From Aquisalimonas lutea (GTDB lineage Bacteria; Pseudomonadota; Gammaproteobacteria; Nitrococcales; Aquisalimonadaceae), in assembly GCF_030409225.1 (NCBI RefSeq), contig NZ_JAUFPK010000001.1, forward strand, positions 2,099,566-2,163,565: a stretch of 64,000 bases of DNA, written 5' to 3'. Below are positions 16,215-60,143 of the stretch, piece after piece (the stretch's first letter is position 1; the number at the start of each line of letters is the position of its first letter). A program made the translations under genes and the position numbers. Below the pieces are notes generated by a model. It was not told where the DNA came from. It worked only from the letters and a program-made list of their open reading frames with translations, and did not search any database.

Positions 16215-16302
16215 GGAGAGGTGCCGGAGCGGTCGAACGGGGCGCACTCGAAATGCGTTGGCCCGCAAGGGCCCGGGGGTTCGAATCCCTCCCTCTCCGC
16301 CA
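16215..16302 (+). tRNA. tRNA-Ser(CGA)
   Basis: Acceptor stem GGAGAGG (16215-16221) pairs with CCTCTCC (16292-16298), with discriminator G and encoded CCA. The anticodon loop CTCGAAA gives anticodon CGA, reading UCG. The long variable arm (TGGCCCGCAAGGGCC) is typical of type II serine tRNAs. The T-arm has GGGTTCGAATCCC. Confidence 0.97.
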
Positions 16303-16341
16303 TCTTCCCTGAGCAGGGCCGCAGGCCCTGCTCAGGGAAGA
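16303..16341 (+). terminator. 18-bp perfect hairpin after tRNA-Ser(CGA)
   Basis: TCTTCCCTGAGCAGGGCC (16303-16320), loop GCA, then its perfect complement (16324-16341). It starts immediately after the CCA end. There is no T-run, so it could be a processing or termination signal. The same hairpin, with one base pair changed, follows tRNA-Ser(GCT) at 59542-59580 and again at 59727-59765. Confidence 0.75.
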
Positions 16342-16480
16342 TCATGAGCCCGGGGGATTCGAACCCCCGGACGGACAAGTTGGTTCGACGGCGTAGCGCA
16401 GCGGAGCCGGTGGTTGGCGCGCCAGCGGCAACCACCCGACGGGCGCGGCGCGGAGCGCCGCAGCAATCCCTCCCTCTCCG
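16342..16480 (+). repeat. tRNA-Ser-associated repeat, copy A
   Basis: After the hairpin, GATTCGAACCCCCGG at 16356-16370 is the exact reverse complement of tRNA positions 16273-16287 and can fold on itself as CCGGGGG-ATTCGAA-CCCCCGG. A GC-rich segment follows with a GTGGTTG...CAACCAC hairpin (16410-16434). The block ends with AATCCCTCCCTCTCCG (16465-16480), a direct copy of the tRNA 3' end without CCA. The same arrangement, with different bases in the inverted part, follows tRNA-Ser(GCT). Confidence 0.75.
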
Positions 16481-58837: not shown

Positions 58838-59141
58838 GGTGGTTCACGGAGGGTGAATCGCCCAGCACCGGGCCATGGGTGGTGCGTGGCCCGGTATCCC
58901 GGAGGTGAGAGATGCCGCGTAACGGTGTTTCCGGGAAGTGTGGTGACATTGAGTGCTTAGCTGAAGGTGACGGTTGTGAGGGACGCCAGCCGTTGAACTC
59001 GTGAGGAATACCGCAGGTCCACGCAGGACAGGGAGCAGCGGTGAGGCGATGCCTCGTCGCAACGGGTGTGCACCTGCGTGGCAGCGCCGGCGGCATGGGC
59101 TGCCGGTGTCGCGGATGCCAGCGGAATGTAGGAGTGAGGCA
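58838..59141. other. Intergenic region between lysC and csrA
   Basis: About 300 bases without a gene. It contains the hairpin ACCGGGCCA (58867-58875) with TGGCCCGGT (58887-58895), a likely stop for lysC without T-run, and several GGA triplets (for example AGGACAGGGAGC at 59025-59036 and AGGAG at 59130-59134). CsrA binds such triplets in its own leader in other bacteria. Confidence 0.5.
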
Positions 59142-59339
59142 ATGCTGATTTTAACCAGGCGGGTTGGCGAGACCCTGATGATCGGCGACGAGGTAACGGT
59201 GACTGTCCTCGGCGTAAAAGGGAATCAGGTGCGGATCGGCGTGAATGCGCCGAAGAACGTCTCCGTCCATCGTGAGGAGATCTACGAGCGGATACAGCAT
59301 GAGGGCGACGAAGACGAAAGCACGCCGACAACCGGCTGA
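59142..59339 (+). CDS. csrA: Carbon storage regulator CsrA
   Basis: A 65-residue RNA-binding dimer that represses or stabilises mRNAs by binding GGA loops. The sequence [18 protein letters not shown] is canonical, with the RNA-contacting [12 protein letters not shown] at the end of the fold. TAGGAG at 59129-59134 is the ribosome site and may itself be a CsrA target. The alaS-lysC-csrA-tRNA-Ser order is widely conserved in gammaproteobacteria. Confidence 0.97.
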
Positions 59340-59452
59340 CGGTACCGGGTACGGGAGGCGGCGCCGGACGGGTTTACCCATCACGCCAAATCCCGTACTC
59401 TACCGCGCTCCGGTGGCCATGCAGGCAATCGCTGCCGCCGGAGGATCCGAAC

Positions 59453-59541
59453 GGAGAGGTGGCCGAGTGGCTGAAGGCGCTCCCCTGCTAAGGGAGTATG
59501 GGTACTGCCCATCGAGGGTTCGAATCCCTCCCTCTCCGCCA
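59453..59541 (+). tRNA. tRNA-Ser(GCT)
   Basis: Acceptor stem GGAGAGG (59453-59459) pairs with CCTCTCC (59531-59537), discriminator G, CCA encoded. Anticodon loop CTGCTAA gives GCT, reading AGC and AGU. Long variable arm (GTATGGGTACTGCCCAT). T-arm GAGGGTTCGAATCCCTC. Confidence 0.97.
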
Positions 59542-59726
59542 ACTTCCCTGAGCAGGGCCGCAGGCCCTGCTCAGGGAAGTTCGATGAAGAAGTCGATTCG
59601 AACCCTCGATAATCGACGAATTGGGGTTCGACTACGCAGCGAAGCGGAGTAGCCCGTTGCCGCGCAGCGGCAACGACCCGGAGGGCAAGGCGCGCGAGCG
59701 CCGCAGCAATCCCTCCCTCTCCGCCA
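59542..59726 (+). repeat. tRNA-Ser-associated repeat, copy B
   Basis: An 18-bp perfect hairpin (59542-59580: ACTTCCCTGAGCAGGGCC, loop GCA, complement) follows the CCA directly. GATTCGAACCCTCGAT at 59595-59610 is the exact reverse complement of tRNA positions 59511-59526. A GC-rich segment with GTTGCCGC/GCGGCAAC follows (59656-59674), and the block ends with AATCCCTCCCTCTCCGCCA (59708-59726), a direct copy of the tRNA 3' end including CCA. Confidence 0.8.
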
Positions 59727-59819
59727 ACTTCCCTGAGCAGGGCCGTAGGCCCTGCTCAGGGAAGTTCACGAAGAAGTCGATTCGAACCCTCGATGATCAA
59801 CGGATTCGGGTTCGATGAG
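59727..59819 (+). repeat. tRNA-Ser-associated repeat, copy C (tandem, partial)
   Basis: Second tandem unit, 185 bases after the first. The same 18-bp hairpin (59727-59765, loop GTA) is followed by GATTCGAACCCTCGAT at 59779-59794, again an exact reverse complement of the tRNA-Ser(GCT) T-arm region. The unit stops before the GC-rich segment. Confidence 0.8.
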
Positions 59820-59916
59820 GAGCTGATTCGAGTTCTCGGCGGTGGACGAGCGGGTTCCGGGGGCAGCGCGTTGACTCCGCGCCGGCCGTTCGACATAATC
59901 ATCGCCGCTCAACAAG

Positions 59917-59993
59917 GCGCCCGTAGCTCAGCTGGATAGAGCACCTGGCTACGAACCAGGCGGTCGGAGGTTCGAATCCTTCCGGGCGCGCCA
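59917..59993 (+). tRNA. tRNA-Arg(ACG)
   Basis: Acceptor stem GCGCCCG (59917-59923) with CGGGCGC (59983-59989), discriminator G, CCA encoded. Anticodon stem CCTGG/CCAGG, loop CTACGAA, anticodon ACG at 59951-59953, whose A34 is the target of TadA (encoded at 14139). Confidence 0.98.
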
Positions 59994-60002
59994 TCTTCAG
60001 AA

Positions 60003-60041
60003 GGGAGGCTCCCCCACTTTTCGGAGCCTCCCCCACTTTTT
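60003..60041 (+). terminator. Rho-independent terminator after tRNA-Arg
   Basis: GGGAGGCTCC (60003-60012) pairs perfectly with GGAGCCTCCC (60023-60032), followed by CCACTTTTT. Ends the tRNA transcript. Confidence 0.9.
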
Positions 60042-60143
60042 GCCCGCTACCTGCTCCGATATTCACCCGACGTCGATCAAGTTTTCTGTGGCTGCGCGGC
60101 AGATAAGGCAGCCCTCGAATCGGGGCTCATCATTGCCCTCGAT

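Follow-up and report, generated by a model that had tools for sequence, protein, structure and literature searches.

The history of tRNA-linked repeats (TLRs) goes back to 1978, and no known function is attributed to them; in the sections of PMC8144298 consulted, which cite Egan and Landy 1978 and Rudd 1999 as the sources for TLRs, 22 copies are counted at ten loci of E. coli K-12, each marked by 18-19 bp that repeat the end of the RNA upstream. The repeat RNA of E. coli tyrT is represented by the RtT family (RF00391), the consensus of which holds GGGGAAGGAU..GAACCUUCGA, largely the complement of the 3' half of E. coli tRNA-Tyr, followed by GGUUCGA, a core, AAUCC and a 3' copy. A related core is found in RrA, RrB and RrF from the T1-T2 regions of the E. 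coli rrn operons, where a direct copy of the 5S 3' end is interrupted by this core and lies behind a terminator. Here we analysed a 64,000-nucleotide stretch of the Aquisalimonas lutea genome (the window) and found that the tail of its tRNA-Ser(GCT) gene is a TLR array. The TLR kind is already known; in the form seen here, the antisense segment is specific for the tRNA in front of it.

A TLR array behind tRNA-Ser(GCT)

The array consists of one full and one truncated unit (Table 1). A preliminary description had proposed that an 18-bp hairpin recurs twice behind the tRNA, that both copies are followed by an exact 16-base inverted copy of tRNA positions 59511-59526, and that the first unit ends in a tRNA 3' end including CCA, and each of these elements was recovered. 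Positions 59511-59526 comprise the end of the variable arm, the 5' strand of the T-stem and the T-loop. The hairpins have 18 perfect pairs, or 19 if the flanking A/T is counted, and the repeats are 98% identical over 60 nt with a period of 185. The antisense match starts 53 nt 3' of the tRNA in unit 1, where it is exact over 16 nt, and extends to 17 nt in unit 2; the covariance model R1, described below, matches unit 1 at 59625-59712. Neither hairpin is followed by a T-run, and no terminator-like site was found in positions 59000-60100 of the window. The tailed gene sits between csrA (59142-59339; Pfam CsrA, E 1.7e-26) and tRNA-Arg(ACG), itself preceded by a promoter-like site (59871-59899). 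That csrA lies immediately before the tailed tRNA may be a mere coincidence of gene order; according to the sections consulted of PMC8144298, CsrA is bound in vitro by E. coli RrB, which is related to the tail core.

Table 1. Features of the two tailed tRNA-Ser genes in the window
Feature	Coordinates	Strand	Evidence
tRNA-Ser(CGA), second tailed tRNA in the window	16215..16302	+	
Ser(CGA) tail hairpin	16303..16342	+	
Ser(CGA) antisense segment GGGATTCGAACCCCCGG, 17-nt reverse complement of tRNA-Ser(CGA)	16354..16370	+	
Ser(CGA) tail, GGTTCGA-core-AATCC	16382..16469	+	R1 match
Ser(CGA) 3' end copy, 16 nt, stops before CCA	16465..16480	+	
tRNA-Ser(GCT), the tRNA matched by the tail	59453..59541	+	
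Unit 1 hairpin, 18-bp perfect, directly 3' of CCA, no T-run	59542..59580	+	
Unit 1, 14 nt at the place expected for the acceptor complement in a fold-back copy; diverged	59581..59594	+	
Unit 1 antisense segment GATTCGAACCCTCGAT, exact reverse complement of tRNA 59511-59526	59595..59610	+	
Unit 1 GGTTCGA, direct copy of the 5' half of the T-loop	59625..59631	+	
Unit 1 structured core, 76 nt, hairpins including CCCG-GA-GGG	59632..59707	+	
Unit 1 3' copy AATCCCTCCCTCTCCGCCA, exact 19 nt of the tRNA 3' end including CCA	59708..59726	+	
Unit 2 hairpin, second copy	59727..59765	+	
Unit 2 antisense segment GATTCGAACCCTCGAT	59779..59794	+	
Unit 2 GGTTCGA; the unit ends here, without core or 3' copy	59809..59815	+	

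Like the TLRs of E. coli, which follow tRNA or 5S genes directly in one to five units and combine the 18-19 bp 3' end copy with a related core, the tail lies directly 3' of tRNA-Ser(GCT) on the same strand, repeats the last 19 nt of the tRNA exactly and is linked to E. coli TLRs by its core, via the rrnB core and the Tyr tail of this genome. It differs from them in its tRNA-matched antisense segment and, among its relatives, in tRNA copies that are interrupted in the T-loop, neither of which is mentioned in the sections consulted of PMC8144298. The order of parts equals that of RtT RNA, but RF00391 gave no match to the window Ser(GCT) unit at E up to 1. Among the seven tailed loci of the genome, none reached its curated cut-off of 45 bits: the best, the Tyr tail, scored 41.8 bits (E 9e-6) and the Ser(GGA) tail 25 bits. 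A direct search of E. coli with the window tail gave no match either. Compared with RrA, RrB and RrF, where the longest antisense match to 5S is 6 nt, the window unit has a hairpin without a T-run. The proteobacterial sRNA sX4 (RF02223) also comprises a tRNA-Ser with its trailer; it scored 22-32 bits against a cut-off of 70 in an alignment that rests on the tRNA. Some BIMEs upstream of gatY, rbfA and cvpA have been likened to rtT (PMC2965389, in the part consulted). Identity with REP/BIME elements was rejected, given that these E. coli BIMEs match naRNA4 (cvpA below cut-off) and not R1, while the tails give no naRNA4 match.

Tails follow seven of the 45 tRNA genes of this 4.2-Mb genome, namely Ser CGA, GCT, GGA and TGA, Tyr GTA, and Arg CCT and TCG, so that, when set beside E. 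coli, this non-enterobacterial genome has Ser and Arg as well as Tyr genes among its hosts. The second tailed tRNA of the window, tRNA-Ser(CGA), carries the inverted segment that matches its own sequence (Table 1), and the two Ser loci differ in this segment as their tRNAs do, just as the preliminary description had it. All seven tails begin with a spacer (a hairpin in the Ser tails), followed by an antisense stretch to the T-arm of their own tRNA (13-19 nt long, starting 51-56 nt behind the tRNA) and GGTTCGA. In six of them a core of 76-79 nt comes next, then AATCC with the repeated tRNA 3' end; the Ser(TGA) tail ends after GGTTCGA. Since GGTTCGA and AATCC are the two halves of the T-arm, the direct copy amounts to a T-arm interrupted by the core. 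For Asn and Thr(CGT) the match was limited to 11 nt and came from elsewhere in the tRNA, and for Gly(TCC) and Thr(GGT) the searched stretch was shortened by the contig end. The tRNA-Arg and tRNA-Val genes had been said to lack such tails, and indeed no reverse-complement stretch of at least 10 nt occurs in the 420 nt following Arg(ACG) and Val(CAC).

Distribution of the core and of units without a tRNA

R1 was built from 14 cores, three of which are E. coli tyrT units, and because of these its matches to tyrT are circular. The E. coli rrnB T1-T2 core is absent from the model and was found with 28.3 bits (E 1.3e-4 in that search); T1-T2 spacers with a related core and a core-interrupted copy of the 5S 3' end were seen at L214, L220 (G568) and L242:3833-3916 (E. 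coli rrnB). A covariance-model scan of related genomes had been recommended, and it uncovered core relatives in 34 of the 54 genomes that represented the order (at E up to 0.01), in 116 of 369 representing the class and in 52 of 299 representing the phylum (both E up to 0.001); as the samples overlap, this corresponds to about 195 distinct genomes with a core match. Outside the class lay 34 of the 52 phylum-sample matches, 31 of them in one family. This spread, together with the seven tailed tRNA genes of one genome, refutes chance or an assembly artefact as the source of the tail, an explanation to which we give practically no weight.

In an alignment fitted to the R1 structure, the core helices are paired in 98.1% of 1608 cells from 129 distinct sequences, 316 cells being changed on both sides, and 11 of 13 pairs show changes on both sides. 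The tail might instead be an RrB-type small RNA gene, the product of which is freed from read-through transcripts and acts through its core, for example by binding CsrA or Hfq, while the 3' copy serves end processing only and the antisense segment is a by-product. In the consulted sections of PMC8144298, rrA, rrB and rrF are transcribed by T1 read-through, processed and bound to Hfq and CsrA, and the authors suggest that the 18-bp copy directs RNase E cleavage; the recognition of the rrnB core by R1, a low-temperature-induced RtT sRNA reported in Thioalkalivibrio (PMC8092127, as far as consulted) and Northern signals for two RtT-family RNAs in Actinobacillus (PMC4986893, as far as consulted) point the same way. 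Against it, the 19 TLRs in E. coli tRNA operons are given values below 0.01 as CsrA-binding candidates in the sections consulted of PMC8144298, and a small RNA gene of this kind leaves the tracking of each tRNA by its antisense segment unexplained. We regard this explanation as improbable.

We collected 165 distinct units of the family, from the better R1 matches and chosen places rather than from all matches. A tRNA precedes 130 of them at a distance of less than 900 nt (Ser 69, Tyr 23, Arg 23, Gln 14, Thr 1), and GGTTCGA begins 50-90 nt behind the tRNA in 96 of 97 first units. The 3' copy is complete from T60 on in 85 of the 130 tRNA-linked units and at least 10 nt long in 100.

A search for orphan copies in related genomes had been recommended, and 35 of the 165 units have no tRNA in front; many of these owe their state to contig ends or an inserted island. 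Nine are preceded by the 5' body of a tRNA and are considered below. Of the 26 that remain, 15 are no more than 200 nt away from the end of their locus, in most cases a contig end. At L110 the unit is found beside a phage-type integrase (PF00589, PF13356, PF22022) and reflects an island insertion, L167 looks by eye like an island insertion of the same sort, and the L097 unit follows what appears by eye to be a group II intron. In G512 (L185:1083-1580) the unit lies 66 nt behind a tmRNA gene, hence the family is not limited to tRNA and 5S genes. The spacer at L185 begins, by eye, with a palindrome through the CCA of the tmRNA.

The integrase neighbour at L110 and a four-unit array behind a partial tRNA-Ser 3' end (L326), along with the copying of the tRNA 3' end by full units, would fit remnants or decoys of integrative elements that use this end as their attachment site. 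Both loci are rather read as islands that entered between the tRNA and a tail already in place; the window unit, at 185 bp, is too short for an integrase, and an integrase would not make a conserved core or an inverted segment. Searches of 50,697 phage records gave no match, and the IMG/VR pattern scan yielded one contig. An origin in integrative elements is on these grounds very improbable. An attachment site with its own recombinase encoded or adjoining was likewise rejected as an identity for the tail, as the window unit lies among csrA, tRNA-Ser and tRNA-Arg; an integrase was seen beside one displaced unit, L110. The IMG/VR contig itself (L326:9930-10780), a putative viral contig, looks as if its array had been displaced from its tRNA by a prophage.

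Some weaker matches lie elsewhere. Five dispersed places in one genome (L222-L226, G174) share flanks and near-identical core matches, with no tRNA found nearby; four of these matches score 21-22 bits over 83 nt and that at L224 extends over 121 nt. Judged from these sequences, the core seems to occur also in a dispersed repeat. At L215 and L221 (G659), weak core matches lie near tRNA-Phe genes on the opposite strand. Four records of E. coli plasmids contain weak core matches (76.7% over 46% of the query), and the one inspected has no annotated feature at the match.

Agreement of the antisense segment with its own tRNA

Both in this genome and throughout the family, the data bear out the proposal of an inverted segment adapted to the tRNA beside it. 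The own tRNA gave a better antisense match than every tRNA of another amino acid in the pool for 106 of the 130 tRNA-linked units and failed to do so for 24. Ser and Arg units are antisense to the end of the variable arm, the 5' strand of the T-stem and the T-loop, whereas Tyr and Gln units are antisense to the 3' strand of the T-stem and the acceptor strand, often with GATGAGAACC instead of GATTCGAACC. For a shuffling test, anchored on the T-loop motif alone, 93 loci were used, that is, the 97 first units less one with an N, one that repeated a genome and isoacceptor and two with a weak motif. The Ser/Arg match was 0.847 compared with 0.589 when the tRNAs were shuffled, 0.877 compared with 0.667 when they were shuffled within genomes (31 loci) and 0.852 compared with 0.786 within isoacceptors; the Tyr/Gln match within isoacceptors was 0.823 compared with 0.731. 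In each case 0 of 2000 shuffles reached the observed value. A second set was drawn from 92 matches of a pattern scan of the genome_contigs collection, from which 12 with a core already in the first set and 15 without a tRNA within 500 nt were left out. In this set, which is largely separate from the first and not fully independent of it (some genomes are common to both, and 8 are second units), the 65 units used gave 0.697 compared with 0.507, and 60 units shuffled within isoacceptors gave 0.700 compared with 0.620, again with 0 of 2000 shuffles at the observed value. Several of the 15 tRNA-less pattern matches seem to be chance hits from unrelated phyla.

Where the tRNA and the direct copy in the tail disagree, the antisense base can be asked which of them it fits. 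On the 5' side it fits only the tRNA in 347 cells, only the tail copy in 22 and neither in 44 (123 units); on the 3' side the numbers are 38, 23 and 52, a weak preference. The locus-specific antisense segment is new as far as the literature searched shows: the publications on tyrT/RtT and TLRs covered by the search, which did not extend to the original reports of 1978, 1991, 1994 and 1999, gave no description of it in the parts consulted.

An invariant inverted segment regardless of tRNA identity, named in advance as the outcome that would speak against adaptation, is not found in the family overall and is found locally, in one Thioalkalivibrio group. The Thioalkalivibrio loci and the IMG/VR contig L326 hold 40 units, 29 of them behind a tRNA-Ser; 23 of these 29 carry GATTCGAACCCGAG whatever the isoacceptor, and six follow their tRNA. 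By eye, GATTCGAACCCGAG can pair with itself instead.

The agreement could also arise by copying at the DNA level alone. In this view, the 3' half of the tRNA, the hairpin and the antisense segment make up a long quasi-palindrome whose pieces are kept matched by template switching or by conversion from one arm to the other, along with unequal crossing over among the direct repeats, and the tail has no RNA function. We consider this a real possibility. Near-complete palindromes of the form acceptor-CCA-hairpin-TGG-acceptor complement, recognised by eye at L155 (Gln), L170 (Ser) and L172 (Gln), argue for it and look like recent fold-back copies. Measured from the hairpin centre, the antisense T-loop also lies close to its mirror distance (median difference -2 nt, quartiles -5 and -1, 71 loci), which is a statement on placement only, as the distances are not positively correlated (r = -0.57); a correlation of mirror distances, tried as proof of a fold-back origin, failed on this value. 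Changes that keep pairing through wobble are not in excess (26 of 326 compared with 23 of 346, Fisher p 0.55), which DNA-level copying would explain, in a test that is weak because the true stems of the same tRNAs are equally poor in G-U. Speaking against it, the Ser/Arg stretch near the hairpin has diverged and the part farther away has been kept, with matches of 25-60% at tRNA positions +11 to +16 and of 83-96% at -6 to +3 (77 units kept for the alignment score), whereas correction spreading outward from the hairpin predicts the opposite. The covariation of the core, which resembles that of a selected RNA, is a second point against it.

Unit turnover and homogenisation bear on the same explanation. 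The suggestion that the unit can duplicate in tandem is borne out by the two units here and by up to three or four elsewhere, and the comparison of copy number between strains that had been called for shows the E. coli tyrT array varying from four to one annotated RtT units in steps of about 178 bp, a change in unit steps that DNA-level copying would predict. Among 40 matches spread over 5,391 matching records, 4, 3, 2 and 1 RtT units were annotated in 8, 7, 9 and 10, with array spans of 1161, 983, 805 and 630 bp; the six without annotated units cover 16-41% of the query. The congener G002 has a tail behind Arg(CCG) that is missing from the corresponding flank of the window genome, where similarity stops at the tRNA. 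Certain cores have been homogenised inside one genome, again in line with copying at the DNA level: in the window genome the cores of Ser(GCT) and Ser(GGA) share 95% identity, compared with 84 and 86% for the Ser(GCT) cores of two congeners. This effect is small when all loci are taken together, the median core identity being 0.72 for different tRNAs of one genome (63 pairs), 0.68 for one tRNA compared between genomes (501 pairs) and 0.66 where neither is shared (3995 pairs).

Interrupted tRNA copies and a possible read-through fold switch

When the core is left out of the sequence, ARAGORN recognises a tRNA in nine of the 165 units tested, the same nine in which a tRNA 5' body precedes the unit, and an anticodon was assigned in eight of them. 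In these interrupted copies, which belong to Ser, Arg and Gln tRNAs of five genomes, the core lies inside the T-loop, and each copy is followed closely by an intact tRNA for the same amino acid; at L158 three follow one another with a period of 213 before an intact tRNA-Gln. None of the nine has a CCA tail, and about half are, by eye, mispaired at the acceptor end. As far as the literature searched shows, T-loop-interrupted tRNA copies are new: no description was found in the parts consulted of publications on T-loop insertions, tyrT/RtT and TLRs, a search that ended short of the original reports of 1978, 1991, 1994 and 1999.

The explanation that we favour, tentatively and at somewhat below even chances, is that of a TLR with a fold-back origin, tandem multiplication and fold-switching on read-through. 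The tRNA 3' half would once have been copied back around the hairpin, the antisense segment would be what is left of that fold-back copy, and tandem duplication would then have multiplied the unit. Once RNA polymerase reads through the hairpin, the transcript could switch its fold: the antisense segment would capture the T-arm of the tRNA in one long hairpin, the 5' acceptor strand of the tRNA would find its partner in the distal 3'-strand copy, and the core would be displayed as if inside the T-loop, in the same arrangement that the interrupted tRNA copies encode directly. The tail would in this manner turn a read-through transcript into a processable tRNA-like RNA with a core, not a functional tRNA. 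Many relatives have, by eye, a T-run after the first hairpin, which would mean that their antisense segment is read only after read-through; the window unit has no T-run.

Minimum-energy folds of the tRNA with unit 1 are consistent with such a switch, bearing in mind that they describe equilibrium, ignore the folding of the tRNA before its trailer is made and largely restate the complementarity: at least 8 antisense nt pair with the tRNA in 86 of 93 loci, compared with 31 of 93 in a control of one draw with the tRNA of another amino acid, and the median folding gain is -10.1 compared with -2.6 kcal/mol. The 5' acceptor strand pairs with the distal copy in 72 of the 93 folds and with its own tRNA end in 6, the remaining 15 being unpaired, mixed or other. 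In the E. coli 5S-T1-RrB fold, 5S nt 1-10 likewise pair with the distal copy behind T1. We place fold-switching on read-through slightly ahead of copying at the DNA level.

A wider reading is more speculative, and we think it unlikely: TLRs may be RNA fold switches whose single product, a tRNA or 5S body bearing the conserved core in place of a T-loop, is encoded in two ways. In one, read-through would yield it, with the antisense segment taking away the normal T-arm and the distal copy providing the acceptor strand; in the other, it would come from a separate interrupted tRNA gene upstream of the intact one. If this were true, the body's tRNA identity would signal which RNA gene is over-transcribed.

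Collectively, the family spans the Gammaproteobacteria and at least one further group of the phylum, and is hosted by Ser, Tyr, Arg, Gln and a few other tRNAs, by 5S rRNA and by one tmRNA. The rrnB TLR is part of a terminator that is among those most used on cloning and expression plasmids, according to the sections consulted of PMC8144298, and the antisense segment and the interrupted tRNA copies suggest a concrete structural hypothesis that is testable in E. coli.
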